NCBI GenBank assembly: GCA_030526515.1
Contig: JAUNCQ010000027.1
Span: forward strand, 1 to 33,255
From: Coriobacteriia bacterium
Lineage (GTDB): Bacteria; Actinomycetota; Coriobacteriia; Coriobacteriales; Eggerthellaceae
Reading direction: 5' to 3'
Length of the DNA: 33,255 nucleotides
Below, piece by piece: positions 3,945-32,247 of the stretch. The notes under the pieces are model-generated. The model was not told the origin of the DNA and made no database searches. It worked only from the letters and a program-made list of their open reading frames with translations. How positions within the stretch are numbered: the stretch's first letter is position 1; the number at the start of each line of letters is the position of its first letter. The translations under genes and the position numbers were made by a program.

Positions 3945-5825
<1,881 letters not shown>

Positions 5826-10463: not shown

Positions 10464-11417
10464 ATGATTCAGGGCATTTCCCAGCGCATGGTCAGGACAG
10501 CGGCGGTATGCGCCCTGGTCCTGGGTGCCATGGGCCTGGTGGCGGCCACGTCCACCCAGGCTCACGCGCGTACGTACGTGGACCAGCTGACGTCGAACGC
10601 GGTGTACGTCAACTGCGACATGCCGACGGCGGAGCACTCCAAGATCGTGAGCATTGAGCAGTCGGCTCCGTTTGCGGGCGAAACCGCCTTCACGAAGGCC
10701 TCCTGGGCCGCGGTGGGCGATACCAATCGCATCAAGATCAAGGACCTGAAGCCGGGTCGCTTCTACGAGTTCCGCATCACCTACACGTTCACTGACAGCA
10801 GCGGCACGACCACGTCCGAATGGAACGTGTCGGGCAAGACCGTTCCGACCAAGCCGACCCAGGTGAAGCTGGCCGACCAGCTGTACGGTTCGAAGAAGCT
10901 GCGCGTTTCCTTCAAGACCAGCGTCTGCGACGGCTACACCGTGAAGCTTGACCCGGTGAAGAGCGGTCTGAGCACCCGGACCATCACCGAGGACTTCGAT
11001 TCCGACAAGACCCGCGTGATCAAGTCCGCCTACAAGACCGCCTCCCAGAACACCGCCTATCTGACGAGTGTTCGCACCTGGGTGGAGGACGACAAGGGCA
11101 AGCGCTACTACTCCGCCTGGTCCACCAAGGTCCGCCTGCTGCCCCAGCCGGTGCTGAACAAGGTCAAGGCCGTTTCCGGCGGCATGCGCCTGTACTGGAA
11201 CAAGATCAGCGGCGCCACCAGCTACACGTTGTACACCTCCACCACCAAGGGCAGCTGGAGCAAGGTGGGCACCTATAAGGGCACCCAGAAGGTAGTGAAG
11301 TCCATCAAGGGCCGCGCCTTCCAGAAGAAGCGCACCTACTACGCTCTGGTGGTCGCCAACTACGGCAGCACCAGCAAGTCCCCGAAGGTGCTGTACACGG
11401 GCTTCCGCAAGAACTAG
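10464..11417 (+). CDS. Secreted fibronectin type III-like protein, paralogue 1
   Basis: 317-residue predicted secreted protein of unknown function. A signal peptide is clear: charged start (ISQRMVR), hydrophobic core (AVCALVLGAMGLVAA) and an AxA site near QAHA|RTYV. The mature part consists of beta-rich modules typical of fibronectin type III: residues ~30-125, ~126-225 and ~226-317, with YYSAWSTKVRLLPQP and GMRLYWNKISGATSYTLYTS as landmarks. There is no LPXTG sorting signal, transmembrane anchor or catalytic motif, so it is likely released or loosely attached. Start: ATG after a strong TTAGGAGGGG. It is a tandem paralogue of the gene at 11510, with the closest similarity in the C-terminal two thirds. 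Confidence 0.8.
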   Translation: MIQGISQRMVRTAAVCALVLGAMGLVAATSTQAHARTYVDQLTSNAVYVNCDMPTAEHSKIVSIEQSAPFAGETAFTKASWAAVGDTNRIKIKDLKPGRFYEFRITYTFTDSSGTTTSEWNVSGKTVPTKPTQVKLADQLYGSKKLRVSFKTSVCDGYTVKLDPVKSGLSTRTITEDFDSDKTRVIKSAYKTASQNTAYLTSVRTWVEDDKGKRYYSAWSTKVRLLPQPVLNKVKAVSGGMRLYWNKISGATSYTLYTSTTKGSWSKVGTYKGTQKVVKSIKGRAFQKKRTYYALVVANYGSTSKSPKVLYTGFRKN

Positions 11418-11509: not shown

Positions 11510-12475
11510 ATGGTTACGAGCATTTCCCAGCGCGCAGCTCGGATCGCGGCGGTCTTCGCCCTGGTCCTGGGTGCCGCAGGCCTGGTTGCCGCTACGTCGG
11601 GCCAGGCGCAGGCTGTCACCTACGTGGACGGTCTGACCACCAGCTCCATCACCGTCAACTGCGACCTGAGCGCTTACAACCAGGTTCGCGTTGACTACGT
11701 GGAGGCATCTGCCCAGTACGCTGACGACAGCACCTACAAGAAGCGCTCTTGGGAGATCGTTCCCAACAGCAATCGCGTGAAGGTCAAGGGCCTGGCCGCG
11801 GGCGTGTACTACGGCATCCGCATTCACTACAGCTACAACTTCAGCGATGACGGCACCTGGTATGACGGCACCTGGTCCACCTTTGCCAAGACCGTTCCGA
11901 ACAAGCCCACCAAGGTGAAGATTGCTGATCAGCTGTACGCCACCAAGAAGCTGAGCGTTTCCTTCAAGACCGGCGCCTGCGACGGCTACACCGTGAAGCT
12001 GGATCCGGTGAAGAAGGGCCTGAGCAACAAGTACATCAAGTCTGACTACGGCGTTCTCAAGACCGGCTACGCCACCACCACCTACGCGAGCGCTTCCCAG
12101 AACACCGCTTACTACGCAACCGTCCGCACCTGGGTCAAGGACGACAACAACAAGAAGTACTACTCCGCTTGGTCCACCAAGATCCGCCTGCTGCCCCAGC
12201 CGGTGCTGACCAAGGCCAAGTCCATCAAGGGCGGCATCCGCATCTACTGGAACAAGGTCAGCGGCGCCAGCAGCTACACCCTGTACACCTCCACCACCCG
12301 GGGCAACTGGAGCAAGGTGGGCACCTTCAAGAGCACCTACAAGAACCTGAAGACCGTCAAGGGCCGTAGCATCAAGGTCGGCAAGACCTACTACGCCATG
12401 GTCGTTGCCAACTACGGTAGCAAGTACAAGTCTCCCAAGGCCCTGTGCCGTGGCTTCTATCGCTACTACACGTAG
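11510..12475 (+). CDS. Secreted fibronectin type III-like protein, paralogue 2
   Basis: 321-residue paralogue of the preceding protein. It has a signal peptide (ISQRAARIAAV, then a hydrophobic stretch ending ATSGQAQA) and the same three beta-rich modules; the block YYSAWSTKIRLLPQPVL and the module SGASSYTLYTSTTRGNWSK are nearly identical between the two. The N-terminal ~100 mature residues differ most (tyrosine-rich here: YVEASAQYADDSTY, then SYNFSDDGTWYDG), so this part probably carries the specific binding function. No anchor or catalytic site is seen. The ATG follows TTAGGAGGG. A terminator lies 27 bases after the stop. Confidence 0.8.
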   Translation: MVTSISQRAARIAAVFALVLGAAGLVAATSGQAQAVTYVDGLTTSSITVNCDLSAYNQVRVDYVEASAQYADDSTYKKRSWEIVPNSNRVKVKGLAAGVYYGIRIHYSYNFSDDGTWYDGTWSTFAKTVPNKPTKVKIADQLYATKKLSVSFKTGACDGYTVKLDPVKKGLSNKYIKSDYGVLKTGYATTTYASASQNTAYYATVRTWVKDDNNKKYYSAWSTKIRLLPQPVLTKAKSIKGGIRIYWNKVSGASSYTLYTSTTRGNWSKVGTFKSTYKNLKTVKGRSIKVGKTYYAMVVANYGSKYKSPKALCRGFYRYYT

Positions 12476-17619: not shown

Positions 17620-18420
17620 TTAGAGCAGCAGGCCGGCGGCCGTGCTGGCGGCGGCCATGGCGACCAGGACCGCAATGGCAACGAAGTCCCGGGATCCCAT
17701 GCGGGCCACGTGCAGGCGCGTGCGGCCGGCGCCGCCGTGGTAGCAGCGGGCATCCATGGCGTTGGCCAGGGTTTCTGCATGGCGGAACACGCTGACGAAC
17801 AGGGGAATGACCAGGGACTTTGCCGCGCCGTAGCGCTCCTTCAGGGACCGGTCCACCAGCTGCGCGCCGCGGGATGCCTGGGCGTTGCGGATGTGGTCCA
17901 GCTCGGTCATGAACTGGGGCAGGAAGCGCAGGGCAATGCCCGCCATCATGGCAAGCTCGTGGGAGGGCAGGCCGAAGCGGGAAAAGGGCCGCAGCATGTC
18001 CTCGGCGGCATCGGTCACGTCAAGGGCGGTCGTGGTCAGCGTCAGCAGGCAGGCGCCGAACAGCAGCAGCATCAGTCGGCAGCCCATGAACAGCGCCTGG
18101 TACACGCCGGCCTCGGACACGTGAACGGGCCCCAGGCTGAGCAGCACCGCACCGCCCTGAGTCCAGAACAGGTTGATGAGGGCCGTGACCACCACGATGA
18201 AGCTCAGCGGCAGCACCGCCCGAATGGCCACGCCCATGGGAATGCGGGCGCAGACGTAGAACCCCACCGTGAACAGGGCGCACAGCCCCAGGGCCGTCGG
18301 GTTGGCGGCCAGCAGCACCACCACGATGTAGGCCAGCAGCAGCGTGACCTTCATGCGGGCGTCCATGCGATGCACGGGGCTGGGGGTGGCGTAGTAGCGG
18401 CCGAAGACCAGCGGCGTCAT
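17620..18420 (-). CDS. ecfT: ECF transporter transmembrane subunit EcfT (riboflavin cassette)
   Basis: 266-residue EcfT, the scaffold that links the substrate-binding S subunit to the two ATPases. It has about five hydrophobic helices (for example VTLLLAYIVVVLLAA and VLPLSFIVVVTALINLF) and the cytoplasmic coupling helices, whose signature motifs read AQASRGAQ and AMDARCYHG (usual Ala-Arg-Gly). The second is ARC rather than ARG. The start codon overlaps the stop of the upstream ATPase gene by 4 bases, so translation is coupled. Last gene of the ribU-ecfA-ecfA-ecfT operon. Confidence 0.9.
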   Translation of the reverse strand: MTPLVFGRYYATPSPVHRMDARMKVTLLLAYIVVVLLAANPTALGLCALFTVGFYVCARIPMGVAIRAVLPLSFIVVVTALINLFWTQGGAVLLSLGPVHVSEAGVYQALFMGCRLMLLLFGACLLTLTTTALDVTDAAEDMLRPFSRFGLPSHELAMMAGIALRFLPQFMTELDHIRNAQASRGAQLVDRSLKERYGAAKSLVIPLFVSVFRHAETLANAMDARCYHGGAGRTRLHVARMGSRDFVAIAVLVAMAAASTAAGLLL

Positions 18421-19439
18421 GGGCGCTCCTCCGGCTCGGCGGCTTCAGGTTCGGGGGACGAAAACGCCGTTCGACCGGCGGCTTTTTCGTCCCCGTGCGC
18501 ATAGAGCGCTGCCAGCTCGGCGGCCAGGTCGGCGGCGGTGGCGTACAGGCGAGTGGGCAGCGCCAGGCCGCGGGCGCGCAGGGAGTTGGCCATGCGCTGG
18601 GCCTCGGGCACGTCAAGGCCGGCGGCGTGGAGCTCCTCCTCGTGGGCGAAGACCGCCTCCGGCACGTCCAGGAACAGCTGCCTGCCCTGGGAAAGCACCA
18701 GCACCCGGTCGCACAGGCGCGCCAGGTCGTTCATGTTGTGGCTGACCATGACCACGCTCAGGCCGCCTGCATGCAGGTCCTTGATCAGGTCCAGGAAGCT
18801 GGCCCGCGCCGCCGGGTCCAGGCCGGCCACGGGCTCGTCCAGCACCAGGACCTGGGGGTCCATGGCCAGCACGCCGGCAAAGGCCACGCGGCGCTGCTGT
18901 CCGCCGGAAAGCTCGAAGGGGCTCATGGTGCCAATGGCGGCCACGTCCAGGCCCACCTGGGCCAGGGCCCGCTCCACGCGCTCGGTCACGGCATCGGCAT
19001 CCAGCCCCAGGTTGCGGGGGCCGAAGGCAACGTCGTCGAAGGCGGTGCCGGCGAACAGCTGGTGCTCCGGATACTGGAACACCACGCCCACGGCACCGCG
19101 GATGGATCGGGCCGCGGCCTTGTCCGCCAGGTCGGCGCCGTCCACCAGCACGCGGCCGCGGGTGGGATGCAGCAGGCCGTTCAGGTGCTGGATCAGCGTG
19201 GACTTGCCGCTGCCGGTGTGACCGGCAATGCCCAGGAACTCACCGGGCTCCAGGGAAAAGCTGACGTCCTGCAGGGCCCACAGCTCGTCGGGGTCGTTGC
19301 CCCAGGCCGCCTGGCCGTGGCGCTCCAGCGAATCCGACGGGGTGGCTCCGGCGTTGCGACGTCCTCGCTTGGACCCGCGGCGCTTCTGCGTCCCGGCGTC
19401 GGCGTAGGAGAAGCTTACCTGCTCGAAATCAATGCGCAC
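18417..19439 (-). CDS. ECF transporter ATPase EcfA (second of the riboflavin cassette)
   Basis: 340-residue ABC ATPase of the CbiO/EcfA family. Walker A is GHTGSGKSTL, the Q-loop YPEHQLF, the signature LSGGQQRR, Walker B VLVLDEPVAGLD and the switch histidine lies in VMVSHNMND; all are canonical. It is longer than the usual 280 residues because of an Arg/Ser-rich insert after strand 1 (residues ~17-50, RRGSKRGRRN) and a Pro/Glu/Ala-rich tail. The tail is encoded over the hairpin at 18454-18494. It overlaps the first ATPase gene by 25 bases and ecfT by 4. The MRIDFEQVSFSYAD start matches the family start. Confidence 0.9.
   Translation of the reverse strand: MRIDFEQVSFSYADAGTQKRRGSKRGRRNAGATPSDSLERHGQAAWGNDPDELWALQDVSFSLEPGEFLGIAGHTGSGKSTLIQHLNGLLHPTRGRVLVDGADLADKAAARSIRGAVGVVFQYPEHQLFAGTAFDDVAFGPRNLGLDADAVTERVERALAQVGLDVAAIGTMSPFELSGGQQRRVAFAGVLAMDPQVLVLDEPVAGLDPAARASFLDLIKDLHAGGLSVVMVSHNMNDLARLCDRVLVLSQGRQLFLDVPEAVFAHEEELHAAGLDVPEAQRMANSLRARGLALPTRLYATAADLAAELAALYAHGDEKAAGRTAFSSPEPEAAEPEERP
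18454..18494. repeat. GGGGACGAAAA hairpin inside the 3' end of the ATPase gene
   Basis: GGGGACGAAAA-CGCCG (18454-18469) pairs with CGGCG (18476-18480) and TTTTCGTCCCC (18484-18494), about 16 pairs with a three-base bulge. It lies within coding sequence 34 bases before the ecfT start codon and encodes part of the non-conserved ATPase tail. Confidence 0.65.
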
Positions 19440-20236
19440 AGCTCCTCCTCCAGGTCGTTGTCGTGCAGATGGGTGCCCACGGGCACGCCTGCCTGCTGCA
19501 GGCAGCGGGAAAGCTCGGTGGCAAAGGGGACGGTCAGGCCCCGCTCAGTCAGGGCGGCGGCGTCGGTGAGCACGTCGGCCGGGGCGCCTTCCCGCACCAC
19601 GCGGCCGTCGTCCAGGATCAGCACCCGGTCGGCCAGGGCCGCCTCCTCCATGGAGTGGGTGATGGTCACCACGGTCATGCCCGCCTGGTGCAGCTGTTCC
19701 ATGACCCGCAGCAGGCCGGTGCGGCCGCGGGGGTCCAGCATGGCGGAGGCTTCGTCCAGGATCAGCACCCGGGGGCGCATGGCAAGCACGCCGGCGATGG
19801 CCACGCGCTGCTTCTGTCCGCCGGACAGCTGAGCGGTTTCACGCAGCTCGAAGCCCTGCAGGCCCACGGTGTGCAGGGCTTCCGTCACGCGCTCGCGCAG
19901 GTCGTCGGCGGGCAGCCCCAGGTTTTCCGGGCCAAAGGCCACGTCGTTTTCCACCAGGGTGGCCACCAGCTGGTCGTCGGGGTTCTGGAAGACCATGCCG
20001 GCGGTGGAGCGGATCAGGTACAGCGCATCCGGGTCCACGGTGGAGCGGCCGTCTACGGTGACCGTGCCCTCATCGGGCACCAGCAGGGCGTTCATGTGCT
20101 TGGCCAGCGTCGACTTGCCGCTGCCGTTGCCGCCTAGGATGGCCACGTATTCGCCCGGCCGCACGTGCAGGTCAATGCCGTCCAGCACGAAGCGCTGGCC
20201 GTTGTAGGTGAAGCGCGTGTTGTCAAAGGTGATCAT
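19415..20236 (-). CDS. ECF transporter ATPase EcfA (first of the riboflavin cassette)
   Basis: 273-residue ABC ATPase of the CbiO/EcfA family. It has Walker A GGNGSGKSTLAKH, Q-loop FQNPDDQLVATLVENDVAFGPENLG, signature LSGGQKQR, Walker B VLILDEASAMLDP and the switch histidine in VTITHSMEEA. The Walker B, signature and H-loop are all intact, so with the second ATPase it should build two competent ATP sites. The start has AAGGAC upstream. A terminator-like hairpin separates it from ribU, so expression may rely on read-through. Confidence 0.92.
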   Translation of the reverse strand: MITFDNTRFTYNGQRFVLDGIDLHVRPGEYVAILGGNGSGKSTLAKHMNALLVPDEGTVTVDGRSTVDPDALYLIRSTAGMVFQNPDDQLVATLVENDVAFGPENLGLPADDLRERVTEALHTVGLQGFELRETAQLSGGQKQRVAIAGVLAMRPRVLILDEASAMLDPRGRTGLLRVMEQLHQAGMTVVTITHSMEEAALADRVLILDDGRVVREGAPADVLTDAAALTERGLTVPFATELSRCLQQAGVPVGTHLHDNDLEEELCALISSR

Positions 20237-20276
20237 GGGAGTCCTTGCGTGTTGCCAGGTCGGGATCAGGAGGGCG

Positions 20277-20348
20277 AAAAAGCCGCCGGCCGGCCTCTGT
20301 TTTGCCCCCTACATTAATAGAGATGCGAAGCAGGGGCCGGTCGGCGGC
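20277..20348 (-). terminator. Hairpin with T-run between ribU and the ATPase genes
   Basis: On the minus strand GCCGCCGACCGGCC (20348-20335) pairs with GGCCGGCCGGCGGC (20295-20282), 14 positions with one mismatch, and is followed by TTTTT. The loop is long (39 nt). It would reduce but perhaps not abolish transcription of the ecfA-ecfA-ecfT genes. Confidence 0.6.
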
Positions 20349-20359
20349 GTTCGATTTCC

Positions 20360-20932
20360 TTAGCGGCCCTTGACCTGGTCCTTCTTGGGGGTGATCAGGT
20401 TGCTGATGCTCTTATACACCACCAGCGTCAGCACGGCGTTGAGTGCGGCCTTGATGGCGTTGAACGGCAGCAGGATGGGCACGATCATGGCCATCACGGC
20501 GTTAACGTCCACGCCGGCGTAGATGGGGGTGATCAGCAGGTTGCCCACAATTGCCAGCACCAGCGCGGCCAGGAAGCTGACCACCAGGCCGATGACGGCG
20601 CCCTTCATGGTGTGCATGCGGCGGTAGATGATGGCGGAGGGGATCACGTAGCCCATGATCACGATGACGTTCATCAGGTTGCCCCAGATGTTGCCGTCCA
20701 TCAGGCAGTGCAGGGCAATGGCCACAATGCCCACGGCCAGGCCGGGGCCGGCGCCGAACGCGAAGCCGCAGACCATTGCCGGGACGAAGGACGGGTCGTA
20801 CTTCAGCCAGGGGGCGGCGGGGAACAGCGGGATCTCCACGAAGGTCAGCAGGATGCTGATAGCGCACATGAGGGCCATGACGACCAGCTGACGGGTGGAC
20901 CAGACGTTGGTGTTCTTGATTGCTTCGGACAT
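20360..20932 (-). CDS. ribU: ECF transporter S component, riboflavin (RibU)
   Basis: 190-residue membrane protein with about six hydrophobic helices. The N-terminal half has the RibU hallmarks: QLVVMALMCAISILLTFVEIP, then the loop PWLKYDPSFVPAMVCGFAFGAGPGLAVG, matching the riboflavin-binding P-x-LK-x-D-x-S-x-x-P pattern. The start at 20932 (MSEAIKN) is used because AGGAAGG stands upstream and the in-frame extension to 21052 lies in the riboswitch terminator. The FMN riboswitch upstream supports riboflavin as substrate. Two ATPases and an EcfT follow, so this S component has a dedicated energising module nearby. Confidence 0.92.
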   Translation of the reverse strand: MSEAIKNTNVWSTRQLVVMALMCAISILLTFVEIPLFPAAPWLKYDPSFVPAMVCGFAFGAGPGLAVGIVAIALHCLMDGNIWGNLMNVIVIMGYVIPSAIIYRRMHTMKGAVIGLVVSFLAALVLAIVGNLLITPIYAGVDVNAVMAMIVPILLPFNAIKAALNAVLTLVVYKSISNLITPKKDQVKGR

Positions 20933-20983
20933 GATGTTCCTTCCTATGAGGCCGGGTGCGTTGAGCGGGTTTTCTGGCCTCAC

Positions 20984-21024
20984 AAGAAAACGAGCCCGTA
21001 TGAATCCAGTCAATACAGGCTCGT
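20984..21024 (-). terminator. Expression-platform terminator of the FMN riboswitch
   Basis: On the minus strand ACGAGCCTGTAT (21024-21013) pairs with ATACGGGCTCGT (21001-20990), 12 bp with one G-U pair and an 11-nt loop, followed by TTTCTT. It lies between aptamer and ribU and would stop transcription when FMN is bound. Confidence 0.88.
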
Positions 21025-21096
21025 GAGTTCGCGTATGCGCAGGCATCGCCATGGGGGCGTGTCAGGGTCGCGGCCGGGGCCGCGGGTGCGAACGTC

Positions 21097-21236
21097 TGCC
21101 TCTTCCATCCGGACTGTGACCGTTGGTCCCGGAGTCGCACCGGGTCAGCCTGGTCGGCGCGGGGCCGGCCAGGGTCGCGGACTTCCGCAGTGCTGCGGTT
21201 ACCGCCAGTGGGGAATTTCGCCCCGCCCTGAAACAG
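21097..21236 (-). promoter_or_regulatory. FMN riboswitch (RFN element) controlling ribU
   Basis: The minus strand carries the RFN consensus blocks in order: CAGGGCGGGGCGAAATTCCC, ACTGGCGGTA, AGTCCGCGACC, the ACCCGGTGCGACTCCGGGACC arm, GGTCACAGTCCGGATGGAAG. CTGTTTC at the start can close with GAGGCAG at the end as helix P1. FMN binding should favour the terminator at 20984-21024 and switch off riboflavin uptake. Confidence 0.96.
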
Positions 21237-21250
21237 AATTCATGGGGGCT

Positions 21251-26138: not shown

Positions 26139-26714
26139 ATGGCAGAGAAGCGCGTCGTATCCACTAGCACCGAAAACCAGAGCGGCTTCGCCGTTCGCGA
26201 CCTGATCCTGATCGCCGTCCTGCTTGCCGCAGGCGCGGTCCTGAAGCTGACCGTTTCCAGCTTCCTGAGCTTTGCGGGCATGAAGCCCAACTTCATGATC
26301 GCCATGTACTGCCTGGCCATCATCCTGACCAGGCCGAAGGTCTACCAGGCAGGCATCATCGGCCTGATCACCGGCCTGATCAGCCAGATTCCGCTGCTGA
26401 ACGCCACGCCGCTGGTGAACATTGGCTCCGAGCTGGTCGGCGCTGTGGTCTGCGGCATCCTGGTGGCAGCCCTGACCAAGGTGGCCACGGAAAACAAGGG
26501 CCTGCAGAATGTGGTCTTCCCGCTGATCATCACCTTCGTGTCCACCGTGTTCTCCGGCTACACCTTCGCCACCATCGTGGGCGTGGGCCTGAGCGGCCTG
26601 GGCCTGGCCGAGGTCCTGGTCATGTACGCCGTCATGGTCCTGGGCACCGCATCCATGAACGCGGTGGTCGCCGCCATCCTGACCCCGATCCTGCGCTCCG
26701 TGCTGAAGCGCTAA
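26139..26714 (+). CDS. trpP: ECF transporter S component, tryptophan (TrpP-like)
   Basis: 191-residue membrane protein of the TrpP family (Bacillus YhaG), with about five or six hydrophobic helices. The diagnostic segment GMKPNFMIAMYCLAIILTRPKVYQAGIIGLITGLISQ parallels the Bacillus TrpP block GMKPDxLLxMMF...PRVxNxxxIGIxTGIIS; the late SMNAVVAAILTPILRSVLKR also fits. The tryptophan T-box upstream gives independent support for the substrate. The ATG follows GAAAGGAAAG. A GC-rich hairpin (GCCCCGCCGC 26732-26741 with GCGGCGGGGC 26754-26763, no T-run) separates it from the ATPases; it may set a lower level of the downstream genes. Confidence 0.9.
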   Translation: MAEKRVVSTSTENQSGFAVRDLILIAVLLAAGAVLKLTVSSFLSFAGMKPNFMIAMYCLAIILTRPKVYQAGIIGLITGLISQIPLLNATPLVNIGSELVGAVVCGILVAALTKVATENKGLQNVVFPLIITFVSTVFSGYTFATIVGVGLSGLGLAEVLVMYAVMVLGTASMNAVVAAILTPILRSVLKR

Positions 26715-26785
26715 CCGCCCTCCCGTCAATTGCCCCGCCGCCGGCACCCGCCCGCGGCGGGGCAGCTTTGCTGAAAGGAACCACC

Positions 26786-27625
26786 ATGATCCAGGTAAGC
26801 GACCTGACCTTCCGCTACCGGGAAGGCGCCGAGCCGGTGATCCGCAACATCAGCTTGCAGATCCCCGATGGCCAGTTCGTGGGCATCACCGGCGCCGCGG
26901 GCTGCGGCAAGTCCACCCTGACCTACGCGTTCAACGGGATCATCCCTCATTGCTATCCCGGTGACTTCTACGGCTCGGTCCTCATCGACGGCCTGGATAC
27001 CGTGGACACCAGCCTGACCGACCTGTCCCGTCTGGTGGGCAGCGTGTGCCAGGACATCGACTCCCAGATGGTCTCCTCCGTGGTGGAGGATGAGATCCTG
27101 TACGGCCTGGAAAACTTCGGCGTGCCCCGAGACCAGGTGGAGCAGCGCATCCAATCCGCCCTGGACGCCATGGGCATTGCGGACCTGCGGGACCGCGCCA
27201 TTGCCAGCCTGTCCGGCGGCCAGAAGCAGAAGGTGGCCGTGGCCTCGGTCATAGCCCTGGAGCCCAAGGTCCTGGTGCTGGATGAGCCCACCGCCGAGCT
27301 GGATCCCGCCAGCTCCCGCGCGGTGTTCGAGCTGCTGGCCCGCTATTCCCGGGAGCGGGGCGTGACGGTCATAGTGGTCGAGCAGAAGATTGCCCTGCTT
27401 AGCGAATTTGCCGATCGCCTGCTGATCGTGGACCAGGGCCAAATAAAGTTTGACGCTCCGCCCGCCCAGGTGCTGGAGCACTCCCAGGAGCTGCTGGAGA
27501 TCGGCGTGAACTGCCCCCGCAGCACCAGCTTGTCCGTGCTGCTGCGCCAGCGCGGTCTGTACGACGGCCCGGTCTGCCGCACCGTGGACCAGGCCGTGGC
27601 CCGTTGCCTGGAGGTGATCGCATGA
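26786..27625 (+). CDS. ECF ATPase subunit 1 of the tryptophan cassette, switch His replaced by Gln
   Basis: 279-residue ABC ATPase of the EcfA/CbiO family. Walker A (GAAGCGKST), Q-loop (VCQDIDSQM), a canonical signature (LSGGQKQK) and Walker B with the catalytic Glu (VLVLDEPTAELDP) are present. The switch region reads VIVVEQKIALLSEFAD where relatives have VEHR or VTHD, so the histidine that senses the gamma phosphate is Gln200. The partner encoded next has the opposite defect. The ATG at 26786 follows GAAAGGAA; an in-frame ATG at 26768 has no site. The stop overlaps the next start (ATGA). Confidence 0.92.
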   Translation: MIQVSDLTFRYREGAEPVIRNISLQIPDGQFVGITGAAGCGKSTLTYAFNGIIPHCYPGDFYGSVLIDGLDTVDTSLTDLSRLVGSVCQDIDSQMVSSVVEDEILYGLENFGVPRDQVEQRIQSALDAMGIADLRDRAIASLSGGQKQKVAVASVIALEPKVLVLDEPTAELDPASSRAVFELLARYSRERGVTVIVVEQKIALLSEFADRLLIVDQGQIKFDAPPAQVLEHSQELLEIGVNCPRSTSLSVLLRQRGLYDGPVCRTVDQAVARCLEVIA

Positions 27626-28464
27626 TCGAGTTCAAGAACGTCTTCGCCCACTACGAAGCAGAGACCCCGATCCTTCAGGACGTGAGCTTCACCATCGACG
27701 ACGGCGAGTTCGTGGCCTTCGTGGGCACCAACGGCGCCGGCAAGTCCACCACCATGCGCCTGTGCAACGGCCTGCTGAAGCCCGTCAGCGGCCAGGTGCT
27801 CATTGACGGCGTGCCCACCACCGAGCTGCGCACCAGCGAGCTGGCCCGCCGAGTGGGCTTCCTGTTCCAGAATCCCGACCGGCAGATCTGCTGCTCCACC
27901 GTCCGCGAGGAGCTGGAGTTCGGCTTCAAGGCCCAGGATCGCCTGGACCAAGACGCCCGCCAGCGCGTGGACCAGGTCATTGCCGAGTTCGGATTCGACC
28001 CCGACGCGGAGCCCTTCCTGCTGAACCGCGGCACCCGCCAGCTTCTGGCCCTGGCCTCCATCATGGTCATGGCGCCGCCGGTCATCATCTTGGACGAGCC
28101 CACCACCGGCCTGGACTACCGCGAGTGCATGAAGGTCATGGAGGTCATCCGCCGCCTGCACCAGTCCGGCTCCACCGTGATCATGGTCTGCCACGACATG
28201 GAGGTGGTGGCGGACTTCGCCCAGCGCGTCATAGTCATGACCCGCGGCGGCGTGGTCGACCAGGGTCCCACCTTCGAGGTCCTGCGCAAGCCCGACGTGC
28301 TGCAGGCCGCGGACCTGATCCCGCCCCAGATCGTCGACCTGAGCATGCGTCTGGTCCAGGCCCGTCCCGAGCTTGCCCATACGCCCGTGGCCCAGGCCAA
28401 TACCCTGGACGAAATGGCCGACGCCCTTGCCGCGCTGGCCCAGAAGGGAGGTGAGCCCGCATGA
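27622..28464 (+). CDS. ECF ATPase subunit 2 of the tryptophan cassette, degenerate ABC signature
   Basis: 280-residue ABC ATPase, paralogue of the preceding subunit. Walker A (GTNGAGKSTTM), Q-loop (FLFQNPDRQ), Walker B (VIILDEPTTGLD) and the switch histidine His191 (VMVCHDMEV) are all present. The ABC signature, normally LSGGQ, reads LNRGT at residues 134-138 (followed by RQLLALAS). In a heterodimer this signature would face the Walker motifs of subunit 1. A C-terminal extension of ~40 residues (PPQIVDLSMRLVQARPEL) is typical of EcfA proteins. It overlaps both neighbours by 4 bases. Confidence 0.92.
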   Translation: MIEFKNVFAHYEAETPILQDVSFTIDDGEFVAFVGTNGAGKSTTMRLCNGLLKPVSGQVLIDGVPTTELRTSELARRVGFLFQNPDRQICCSTVREELEFGFKAQDRLDQDARQRVDQVIAEFGFDPDAEPFLLNRGTRQLLALASIMVMAPPVIILDEPTTGLDYRECMKVMEVIRRLHQSGSTVIMVCHDMEVVADFAQRVIVMTRGGVVDQGPTFEVLRKPDVLQAADLIPPQIVDLSMRLVQARPELAHTPVAQANTLDEMADALAALAQKGGEPA

Positions 28465-29234
28465 AGGGCTTCCTGGAGTACGTACCCGGCAACAGCTTCC
28501 TGCACCGCATGAACCCGGTGGCCAAGCTGGCCGCGGCCCTGCTGATCGTGATCACCTGCTTCGTGACCAGCAGCTTTGCCCTGCTCATTGGCATCTTGGT
28601 GCTGGACCTGGTGCTGGCTGCCCGCTGCGGCATGCTCAAGCAGACCCTGGGCCTGGCCAAGGCCGTCACGGCGTTTTCCGCGCTGCTGGGAGTGATCGCC
28701 CTGTTCACCACCCCCGAGGGAACCCAGCTGGTGGCCTTGCCCTTCGGCGGCTACCTGGGCACCGGCAGCATCCTGGCGGCGGTCCGCATCGTGCTGCGCC
28801 TGGTGGCCTGCGCCGTGCCCCTGTTCCTGGTGTTCTACGTGACCCGTCTGAACGACATCGCAAACTCCCTGGTGAAGATCCTGCACGTGCCGTACAAGTA
28901 CGCGTTCACCTTCATGTCCACCGTGCGGTTCATCCCCCTGTTCATGAACGACATGGCCGGCATCATGGAGGCCCAGACCGCCCGCGGCGTGGAGTTCGAC
29001 GGCAGCCTGGTCAAGCGCCTGCGCCTGATGGTGCCCCTGTGCGTGCCGCTGCTGGTGTCCAGCGTGCGCAAGACCAACAGCGCCGCCATTGCCGCCGAGG
29101 TCCGCGGCTTCAACCTGCGCACCAGCGCCAGCGGCTTCAAGGAGTACCCCTTCGCCAGCCGGGACTTCGCCGCCATGGGCGCCTGCCTGGTCCTGCTGGT
29201 CGGTGCCGTTGCCCTGGCCCTGCTGGGGATCTAG
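28461..29234 (+). CDS. ecfT: ECF transporter transmembrane subunit EcfT (tryptophan cassette)
   Basis: 257-residue EcfT with about five hydrophobic helices (KLAAALLIVITCFVTS, LLIGILVLDLVLAA, CAVPLFLVFYVTRL and a C-terminal CLVLLVGAVALALLG). Both coupling-helix motifs are canonical: AQTARGVE and AAEVRGFN. It shares little detail with the EcfT at 17620, so the two cassettes are not a recent duplication. The start overlaps the ATPase stop by 4 bases and has GGGAGGTGAG upstream. The 172 bases after it hold a direct repeat, GCGTCCGCGCCG at 29234 and 29282, and the promoter of the next gene. Confidence 0.92.
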   Translation: MKGFLEYVPGNSFLHRMNPVAKLAAALLIVITCFVTSSFALLIGILVLDLVLAARCGMLKQTLGLAKAVTAFSALLGVIALFTTPEGTQLVALPFGGYLGTGSILAAVRIVLRLVACAVPLFLVFYVTRLNDIANSLVKILHVPYKYAFTFMSTVRFIPLFMNDMAGIMEAQTARGVEFDGSLVKRLRLMVPLCVPLLVSSVRKTNSAAIAAEVRGFNLRTSASGFKEYPFASRDFAAMGACLVLLVGAVALALLGI

Positions 29235-29363
29235 CGTCCGCGCCGTCCGGCCCTGGTTGCTGCCGCGGATGTGGACGCCCTGCGTCCGCGCCGCCTGCCC
29301 CTGCCCTTGGTAACGATTGGCTTTCGTCCCGCGCCATGCTCCTGCCCGCAGGCCACGCTCGCG

Positions 29364-29369
29364 TAGAAT
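29364..29369 (+). promoter_or_regulatory. Candidate -10 box TAGAAT of the sensor kinase gene
   Basis: TAGAAT followed by GG lies 37 bases before the chosen start at 29407. No -35 box is evident. Confidence 0.4.
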
Positions 29370-29406
29370 GGAAGAAACCCCACGGACCCGATGGGCGGTG
29401 CAAACC

Positions 29407-32247
29407 ATGAGCAGGCTTATTCGCAGAGCAGGAGCGGCCGTTGCGGCGGTCATGCTTGCCCTGCTGTGCGCTGCCTTGTGCGCCCCCGCGGCCCTGGCGG
29501 CCCCCGACCAGGAGAAGACGGTCCGCGTGGCCTACTTCGACTCCGCCCACTTCCTGGAGGGTGCGTCGGAGGACGCCGTCAAGTCCGGCTATGCCTATGA
29601 GATCCTGCACGAGGTGTCCAACCGCACCGGCTGGCGCTACGAGTACGTGTACGGCGACTGGGCGGAGCTGTACGACCAGTTCACCAAGGGCGAAATAGAT
29701 CTGTTCCCCGGCCTGGCCGCTCGTGCGGACCGGGCATCGTTCATGAGCTGGCCTGACCACACCATCGACGTTGAGCATCACTCCGTCTTCGTGGGCCGCA
29801 ACGATTCCTCCCTGGATCCCGACGACCTGACCACCCTCAACGGCAAGCGCATCGGCCTGGTGCGCAACAACAACATGACCGACGAGTTCCTGGCCTGGGC
29901 CAGGAAGCATGATCTGAAGCCCCGGTGCGTCTACTACGACGAGCTGGACCGCATGCCCCAGGACCTGGCTGCTGGCGTCATCGACGGCTTTGCCGGGTCG
30001 GAAAACAACGTGGACAACACCCAGGACGCCGTGGTCTTTGCCCGCATTGCGCAAACCAAGTCCTACTTGGCCGTGCGCAAGGGCGCCCCTGACTTGCTGG
30101 CTGAGCTGAACGATGCCCTGGCCGCCATCGAGAAGGATCATCCCAACTTCTACCAGGAGCTGAAGGCCAAGCACTACCGCACCCGGGTGAGCGCCACGAC
30201 CCTTTCGCCCGAAGAGGAAGCCTGGGTGGCGGACCACCAGGTCCTGCGCATCGGCTACGTTGACGGCTACCTTCCCTTCAGCGGCACGGCGGACGACGGC
30301 AGCCCCCAGGGCGTGGTGGCGGACTTTGCTGAGCAGATGGTCCGGGAGCTGAGCCTGGCCGACGACCTGCGCGTGGAGCTGGTCCGCTACGGGTCCTACG
30401 AAGGCGTGCTGGGTGGCCTTGATCAGGGCGAAGTAGACGTGGCGTTTCCCGTCATGACCAGCGTCTGGCATGCGGAAAAGCACAACGTCATGGAAACCGA
30501 CCAGCTGGTTTCGTCCTCCATTTCCGCCGTATTCGCCGGGGAGTTCGACCTGTCCAAGCTGGACGTGATCGCGGTGGACCGCAACAACTCCGCCCAGAAG
30601 GACTTCGCCCGGGAAGCCTATCCGCAGAGCCAGATCCTGGAGTGCGGTTCCTCCCGGGAGGTGCTGGACGCGGTCCGCAGCGGGCGCGCCGGCTGCGCCC
30701 TGTACAACAGCTCCCGCATATCGACGGCGCTGGCGGGCAGCGGCGGCAGCCTGTCGGAGATCCCCGTGGGCAAGTCCATCGGCTTCTCCTTTGCGGTGCG
30801 CAAGGGAAACATGCCCGTGCTCGCCCTGATGAACCGCGGCGTGAGCGTGCTGGTGGACGAAAACTACTCGGATGAGATGTACCAGTACGTGAGCCAGCTG
30901 AGCGATTTCACCATCCAGGACTTCCTGCGCAAGTACGCCTTCGCCATAGTGGCCGGCGTGCTGGTGGTCCTGCTGCTGGTGCTGCTGGTGATCCTGTCCT
31001 TCCTGGGCAAGGCCCGGGCGGCCGAAGCGGAAACCGCCCAGCTCAACCGGGAGCTGCGGGAAAACCAGGCCAAGCTCGAGCGTGCCAAGGAGGCGGCCGA
31101 GCAGGCCAACGCGGCTAAGACCAACTTCCTGTTCAGCATGAGCCACGACATCCGCACTCCCATGAACGCCATCATCGGCTTCACGGACCTGGTGCGCAAG
31201 AACATCGACCGCAAGGACGTGGCCCTGGGCTACCTGGAAAAGATCCGCATGTCCAACGAGTTCCTGCTGTCCCTGATCAACAACGTCCTGGAGATGGCCC
31301 GCATCGAAAGCGGCAAGGAGCGCCTGGAGTTGGAGCGGGGCAACGCCTACGAGTTCTTTAACGAGATGTACTCCGTGTTCGAGCCCCAGATGCGGGAAAA
31401 GGGCATAGACTTCACCTACCGGGTGGACGTGGATCATCCGTGCGTGCTGACCGATGCCACCAAGTGGCGGGAAATCCTGCTGAACCTGCTCAGCAACGCC
31501 CTGAAGTACACCCCCGCAGGCGGCAGCGTGACCCTGGAGCTGACCGAGCTCTCAGCGGACGAAACAGGCCGGGCCTGCTACCGCGTTGACCTGCGGGATA
31601 CCGGCATCGGCATGTCCGCAGACTTCCTGCCCCACCTGTTCGACGAGTTCTCCCGGGAGCGCACCAGCACCGAAAGCCGCGTGTTCGGCACCGGCCTGGG
31701 CATGCCCATCGTGAAGCGCCTGGTGGACCTGATGGGCGGCACCATCCAAGTGGAGTCGGAGCTGGGCAAGGGCACCCGTTTCGTTATAGACGCTCCCCTC
31801 CAGGTGGTGGACGGCCCCCATGACCAGGGCTCCGACCGGGATGCGGCGGCGGATGCCGCGCTGCTGGCGGGCAAGCGGATCCTGCTGGCGGAAGACAACG
31901 ACCTGAATGCCGAAATTGCCCTGGCCCTGCTGGAGGAGCTGGGCCTTGCGGTGGACCGGGTGGCCAACGGCCAGCTGTGCGTGGACCAGCTGGAGCAGGC
32001 GGACCCGGGCGCCTACGACGCGGTGCTCATGGATGTGCAGATGCCCGTCATGGACGGCTACGAGGCCACCCGGCGAATCCGCGCCCTGGCTGATCCGGCC
32101 AAGGCGGCCATTCCGGTGCTGGCCATGACCGCCAACGCCTTCGAGGAAGACAAGCGCAACGCCTTCGCCGCGGGCATGAACGGCCACGTGGCCAAGCCCG
32201 TCCGCGTGGAGGAGCTGGTGGCTGCCCTGGCGGACGCGCTGCGATAG
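29407..32247 (+). CDS. Hybrid sensor histidine kinase with two periplasmic solute-binding (SBP_bac_3) domains
   Basis: 946-residue membrane sensor with EvgS/BvgS-like architecture. Signal peptide (RRAGAAVAAVMLALLCAALC ... ALAA), two Venus-flytrap domains of the SBP_bac_3 type (~25-260, starting VRVAYFDSA; ~265-500, starting LRIGYVDGYLPFSG), a transmembrane helix (~510-534), a coiled linker, HisKA with phospho-acceptor His580 in SHDIRTPMNAI, HATPase_c (NLLSNALKYTPAG, DTGIGM, GTGLGMPIVKRL) and a receiver domain with phospho-acceptor Asp876 in VLMDVQMPVMDG. There is no PAS domain, HPt domain or output domain, and no adjacent response regulator. The ligand is likely an amino acid or other small solute. 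The ATG at 29407 is chosen because it begins the signal peptide and lies beyond the -10 box; ATGs at 29317 and 29368 are less likely. Confidence 0.92.
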   Translation: MSRLIRRAGAAVAAVMLALLCAALCAPAALAAPDQEKTVRVAYFDSAHFLEGASEDAVKSGYAYEILHEVSNRTGWRYEYVYGDWAELYDQFTKGEIDLFPGLAARADRASFMSWPDHTIDVEHHSVFVGRNDSSLDPDDLTTLNGKRIGLVRNNNMTDEFLAWARKHDLKPRCVYYDELDRMPQDLAAGVIDGFAGSENNVDNTQDAVVFARIAQTKSYLAVRKGAPDLLAELNDALAAIEKDHPNFYQELKAKHYRTRVSATTLSPEEEAWVADHQVLRIGYVDGYLPFSGTADDGSPQGVVADFAEQMVRELSLADDLRVELVRYGSYEGVLGGLDQGEVDVAFPVMTSVWHAEKHNVMETDQLVSSSISAVFAGEFDLSKLDVIAVDRNNSAQKDFAREAYPQSQILECGSSREVLDAVRSGRAGCALYNSSRISTALAGSGGSLSEIPVGKSIGFSFAVRKGNMPVLALMNRGVSVLVDENYSDEMYQYVSQLSDFTIQDFLRKYAFAIVAGVLVVLLLVLLVILSFLGKARAAEAETAQLNRELRENQAKLERAKEAAEQANAAKTNFLFSMSHDIRTPMNAIIGFTDLVRKNIDRKDVALGYLEKIRMSNEFLLSLINNVLEMARIESGKERLELERGNAYEFFNEMYSVFEPQMREKGIDFTYRVDVDHPCVLTDATKWREILLNLLSNALKYTPAGGSVTLELTELSADETGRACYRVDLRDTGIGMSADFLPHLFDEFSRERTSTESRVFGTGLGMPIVKRLVDLMGGTIQVESELGKGTRFVIDAPLQVVDGPHDQGSDRDAAADAALLAGKRILLAEDNDLNAEIALALLEELGLAVDRVANGQLCVDQLEQADPGAYDAVLMDVQMPVMDGYEATRRIRALADPAKAAIPVLAMTANAFEEDKRNAFAAGMNGHVAKPVRVEELVAALADALR

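Follow-up and report, generated by a model that had tools for sequence, protein, structure and literature searches.

The window analysed here, a stretch of 33,255 nucleotides from a Coriobacteriia bacterium of the family Eggerthellaceae, carries a compact operon (26139-29234, forward strand) that encodes an S component, two ABC ATPases (A1 and A2) and a T component (Table 1). All frames are open and the gene order, S-A1-A2-T, is conserved in orthologues. The S component passes the Pfam TrpP threshold, yet its 44.9 bits lie far under the 160-212 bits of solitary TrpP proteins. The coupling motifs of EcfT, read directly, are ARG at residue 174 and VRG at residue 214. The top NCBIfam matches of A1 and A2 are ECF_ATPase_1 (E 7e-68) and ECF_ATPase_2 (E 7e-65), respectively, and since the scores fall under the cut-offs of the equivalogs TIGR04520 and TIGR04521 (228.9 against 315 bits and 218.9 against 330 bits) we regard both as divergent ECF ATPases. 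The cassette has the composition of an ECF transporter, with an adjacent S component of known family, a CbiQ/EcfT-type T component carrying Arg motifs and two EcfA-type ATPases.

Table 1. Features of the window, with positions counted from its first letter.
Feature	Position	Strand	Basis
Riboflavin cassette	17623-21061	minus	FMN riboswitch at 21093-21239 (Rfam)
TrpP-like S component, 191 aa	26139..26714	+	PF17099, 44.9 bits vs cut-off 27.2
EcfA (A1), ABC ATPase, 279 aa	26786..27625	+	PF00005; motifs read
A1 signature LSGGQ, residues 142-146	27209..27223	+	Read directly; belongs to canonical site
A1 catalytic Walker B Glu167 (GAG), kept	27284..27286	+	Read directly
A1 switch position Gln200 (CAG) instead of His, in VVEQK	27383..27385	+	Read directly
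EcfA' (A2), ABC ATPase, 280 aa	27622..28464	+	PF00005; start overlaps A1 end
A2 signature LNRGT, residues 134-138	28021..28035	+	Read directly; belongs to non-consensus site
A2 switch His191 (CAC), in CHD	28192..28194	+	Read directly; belongs to canonical site
EcfT, CbiQ-type T component	28461..29234	+	PF02361, 91.4 bits

Directly downstream of EcfT lies an open frame of 976 aa (29317-32247, forward strand), by eye a sensor kinase with periplasmic solute-binding-like repeats and a receiver domain. Elsewhere in the window two adjoining and similar predicted secreted proteins (10464-11417 and 11510-12475, forward strand) appear by eye to be tandem paralogues.

The clue to the substrate comes from relatives. 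T-box leaders scoring above the Rfam cut-off immediately precede the S gene in two Butyrivibrio cassettes (L157 and L161), both of which also carry the Gln switch described below. Under the usual T-box rule the specifier loop, GAA-UGG-A, reads UGG, a tryptophan codon, and tryptophan is therefore supported as the substrate of these relatives and is the predicted substrate in the organism studied here. An Rfam scan of the window itself detected no tryptophan regulatory RNA; the sole match, an FMN riboswitch, belongs to the riboflavin cassette.

The motifs of A1 are Walker A GAAGCGKST, LSGGQ at residue 142, LDEPT at 165 and VVEQK at 197. In A2 they are GTNGAGKST, LNRGT at 134, LDEPT at 157 and CHD at 190. 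The preliminary description had paired LSGGQ with Gln200 in A1, and His191 with the LNRGT signature in A2, and on re-reading these residues and their numbers proved exact. Site 1, made up of Walker A/B and Gln200 of A1 with the LNRGT signature of A2, is non-consensus. Site 2, made up of Walker A/B and His191 of A2 with the LSGGQ signature of A1, is canonical. Changes at the switch and in the partner signature fall at one composite site and the other site is consensus, as in degenerate pairs. Replacement of the Walker B glutamate, a common though not universal mark of such pairs, does not occur; A1 retains the residue throughout the family.

The assignment of both deviations to one site was assessed with an AlphaFold model of a natural A1-A2 fusion from a Treponemataceae relative (L168, with Gln and LSRGQ), the input being 26 natural fusions. 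The model (pLDDT 85, pTM 0.78) is a closed two-domain sandwich, both domains of which overlay ATP-bound DppD (8wdb_D, 475 residues, rmsd 2.4) and outward-facing ABCB1 (453 residues, rmsd 2.4). These whole-model overlays, of a relative's fusion and not of the window pair, support a head-to-tail pairing of A1 with A2 that would place both deviations in one site, and so agree with what had been proposed. The occurrence of natural A1-A2 fusions implies a 1:1 pair.

Orthologues were retrieved in three ways. A search of the whole class with the S component gave matches in 164 of 298 genomes, and 80 of the loci were examined, giving, with the window, a set of 81 A1 proteins. The order at these loci is S-A1-A2-T, and several lineages have an A1-A2 fusion. 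The combination of Gln, LSGGQ and Glu is present in all 81 A1 sequences, and His in every complete A2. Further cassettes, from Clostridia, Treponema and other Spirochaetes, Synergistaceae, Gardnerella and Moorella, came from an alignment search across species genomes and have Gln throughout; LSGGQKQK was among the search patterns, which biases the A1 LSGGQ count in that set, but the class-wide search is unbiased. The third retrieval applied the Pfam TrpP model to 398 Bacillota genomes, so that loci were found independently of A1, and LSGGQ served only afterwards to tell A1 from A2. At the 30 best-scoring TrpP loci there is no ABC ATPase within 1.5 kb, and 20 of 20 weaker-scoring, TrpP-like loci have an ATPase pair of their own, with Gln at the switch in 16 and His in four (L290, L292, L293 and L296). 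In two of the latter, L292 (4068-5549, minus strand) and L293 (4741-6033, plus strand), the S component and A1 share one frame, an apparent S-A1 fusion in which His is kept. We also note that many cassettes of the Coriobacteriaceae/Atopobiaceae type (L086-L110, for example L092 at 4496-5761) have two tandem TrpP-like S genes per ATPase pair; a split specificity is possible.

The tally covers 151 non-redundant TrpP-like S-EcfA-EcfA'-EcfT cassettes from Coriobacteriia, Clostridia and other Bacillota, Spirochaetes and Synergistaceae. The A1 switch residue is Gln in 147 and His in four, and both LSGGQ and the catalytic Glu of A1 are present in 151 of 151. His and Glu are retained in all 150 readable A2 sequences and the Walker A Lys of site 1 is also kept. 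The A2 signature is never LSGGQ. Its third letter, counted over 160 readable rows with redundant entries included, is Arg in 146, Lys in 11 and something else in three, making Arg/Lys approximately 98%. Alongside Gln the A2 signatures are LSRGQ (56), LNRGT (33), LNRGA (16) and LSKGQ (9), with LSRGE, MSRGE, RSRGE and MSRGQ variants. Deviations are limited to the site formed by the nucleotide side of A1 and the signature of A2, leaving the opposite site untouched. The switch Gln is encoded by CAG in 122 cases and by CAA in 37, and this use of both codons indicates that the residue is held at the protein level.

How unusual are these residues in their own genome? Among 28 readable ABC domains found as ECF_ATPase_1 matches, the switch residue is His in 26 and Gln in two, namely A1 and, on contig C2, one nucleotide-binding domain (NBD) of a heterodimeric exporter. 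Every one of the 28 signatures but LNRGT has Ser at position 2. Against this background the A1/A2 pattern exceeds chance. The riboflavin cassette, which had been put forward as an internal control, holds up as one, with LSGGQ and the switch His in both ATPases. In the exporter (G000:C2:20345-22962, L227 and L228) one NBD combines FDDS, with Asp for Glu, and the Gln switch, and the partner has ISQGQ; from its motifs it reads as a textbook degenerate pair, helpful as a yardstick, the cross-wiring of which mirrors that predicted for the TrpP-like pair.

Outside the TrpP-like family the picture is mixed. The YkoE-linked thiamine-type ATPases of Actinomycetota have the switch His in every readable first domain, which rules out, for that type, that dedicated or fused ECF ATPases in general carry Gln in place of His. 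A small, pattern-retrieved sample of 17 other ECF pairs includes three (L190, L193 and L198) in which, from a reading of the neighbours, a Gln switch goes with a different S component. In the two Bacillales pairs L199 and L201, from Paenibacillus and Neobacillus, the catalytic Glu of A1 is lost (DQAT and DNAT) and the switch residue is Thr or Asn, so this ECF site appears more strongly degenerate than that of the window. Four fused ATPases (L189, L191, L197 and L204) display LTKSG or MTKSG as the second-domain signature with the switch His intact, a different type of asymmetry. The deviations in these other pairs affect the same composite site as in the TrpP-like family. The earlier statement that EcfA/EcfA' pairs normally have two competent sites stands for group II modules, in which all motifs are kept in both ATPases (PMC4820897) and both catalytic Glu are needed (PMC10368641), and has to be qualified for several other dedicated pairs, which deviate.

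Trees calculated by a quick method, with SH-aLRT support only and with the signature and switch columns removed, place nearly all TrpP-like cassettes in one group. Of the four with His, L290 and L296 branch near the base of this group and L292 and L293 are found among the outgroup. LNRG[TA] marks a single Eggerthellaceae clade (49 of 50 rows, support 100), the exception being L073, with LSRGS on a long branch. On this placement the replacement of His by Gln was likely early and nearly family-wide, whether through one gain, a few gains or a gain followed by reversion, and the replacement of Ser by Asn in LNRG[TA] likely came later, essentially in one family, the Eggerthellaceae. They do not represent one coupled change. 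The co-occurrence of Gln and LNRGT, suggested earlier as a check, does not hold as a strict linkage: Ser is kept with Gln in 95 cassettes, and L292, outside the TrpP clade, has LNRGE with an intact His.

On balance we favour, by analogy, a dedicated ECF importer of the TrpP type whose motor is asymmetric by design and driven mainly by one engine. Site 1 would probably bind ATP and hydrolyse it slowly or rarely, and in so doing might serve a holding role by keeping the two ATPases in contact. The bulk of ATP turnover would fall to the canonical site 2. ATP-driven closing of the motor would dislodge the S component from EcfT, and hydrolysis confined to site 2 would open it again. This division of labour is suggested because of the analogy with degenerate exporters. 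We are more hesitant, leaning slightly against, about the wider proposal of a dedicated ECF family that extends across phyla, with a fixed single-engine motor, a holding site that retains Glu, a second weakening in the Eggerthellaceae and one main hydrolysis per cycle, in contrast to the group II modules studied to date. Points against a single engine are the catalytic Glu retained by A1, the MRP1 precedent given below, the need of group II modules for both catalytic Glu residues, the LSRGQ or LSKGQ of most relatives, which may be functional signatures, and the His at the switch of four TrpP-like cassettes.

The main rival is that both sites hydrolyse ATP, with Gln200 taking the place of the switch His and a signature carrying Arg or Lys that works, so that an asymmetric sequence would conceal symmetric chemistry. 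In its favour are the invariant catalytic Glu and an A1 switch occupied by one particular residue, Gln, in 147 of 151 cassettes instead of by an assortment. There is also precedent in MRP1, where replacement of His by Gln or Asn at the canonical site, NBS2, is tolerated with wild-type-like transport (PMC7756269). Set against it are the invariance of the A2 His while the A1 switch varies, the loss in Eggerthellaceae of the signature Ser from the same site, and the same Gln in the degenerate exporter of this genome. We judge this reading a serious contender but rather doubtful. Neutral drift, in a site free of selection, could explain why letters 1, 2 and 5 of the A2 signature vary across the family. 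It is highly improbable given that Gln is nearly fixed across several phyla using both synonymous codons, and that the same site retains its Walker A Lys and catalytic Glu. Sequencing or assembly error, for which nothing was found to speak except that CAC and CAG differ by one base, can be dismissed since orthologues share the pattern, with the same residues in dozens of independent genomes and an open operon of conserved order; the earlier safeguard, that orthologues with intact residues would point to error, thus comes out against it, and conservation family-wide across several phyla makes the asymmetry look built-in.

If the asymmetric motor is real, then not all ECF importers need two working ATP sites, and natural variants could reveal the role of the second ATP in expelling the S component and in resetting, a question for which artificial Glu mutants have been the tool to date. 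Within the family there is a natural gradation, from His with LSRGQ through Gln with LSRGQ to Gln with LNRGT, in which each step is measurable. A search of the open-access literature did not find an ECF transporter asymmetry of this kind, which is weak evidence of absence.

Several known systems can be compared with the TrpP-like cassettes. The group II ECF transporters, such as ECF-FolT2 and ECF-CbrT of Lactobacillus delbrueckii, share the assembly of an S component, two ABC ATPases and a CbiQ/EcfT-type T component, and a further likeness is seen in the closed group II motor, where each ATP is engaged by the signature of the partner (PMC10368641). Mutating either catalytic Glu to Gln abolishes group II transport (PMC10368641). 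The TrpP-like family differs in having a site that lacks both the switch His and LSGGQ, and an S component with its own dedicated ATPases. The YkoEDC thiamine transporter (group I) is likewise a dedicated module with paired or fused ATPases, and differs by the switch His. Solitary Bacillota TrpP, of the B. subtilis type, belongs to the same S family, PF17099, but its 30 best-scoring loci lack an adjoining ABC ATPase.

In exporters, a classical degenerate site has in most cases lost the Walker B Glu as well. The likeness to TM287/288 and TmrAB drawn in the preliminary description is sound in that one site is consensus and the other non-consensus, and this extends to EfrCD, MRP1 and Pdr5, with a switch Gln or signature changes at the same site (PMC7756269, PMC4997860); the degenerate-site signature of Pdr5, LNVEQ, also has Asn for Ser (PMC7756269). 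It is less apt with respect to the catalytic Glu, usually lost from the exporters and kept in A1 of the window, and the exporters differ in direction of transport and in membrane domain. Because A1 retains Glu in every cassette, the weak site is a milder case than that of TM287/288 or TmrAB, and some ATP hydrolysis may persist there. Among importers, sequence reading has pointed to one degenerate ATP site in the fused RbsA and NupO of B. subtilis (PMC11466899), but these are type II sugar/nucleoside systems, not ECF, and the degenerate half lacks the Walker A Lys. The original observation is confirmed and its interpretation upheld in part, and the asymmetry of the family is broader and older than first proposed and milder than that of the exporters with which it was compared.
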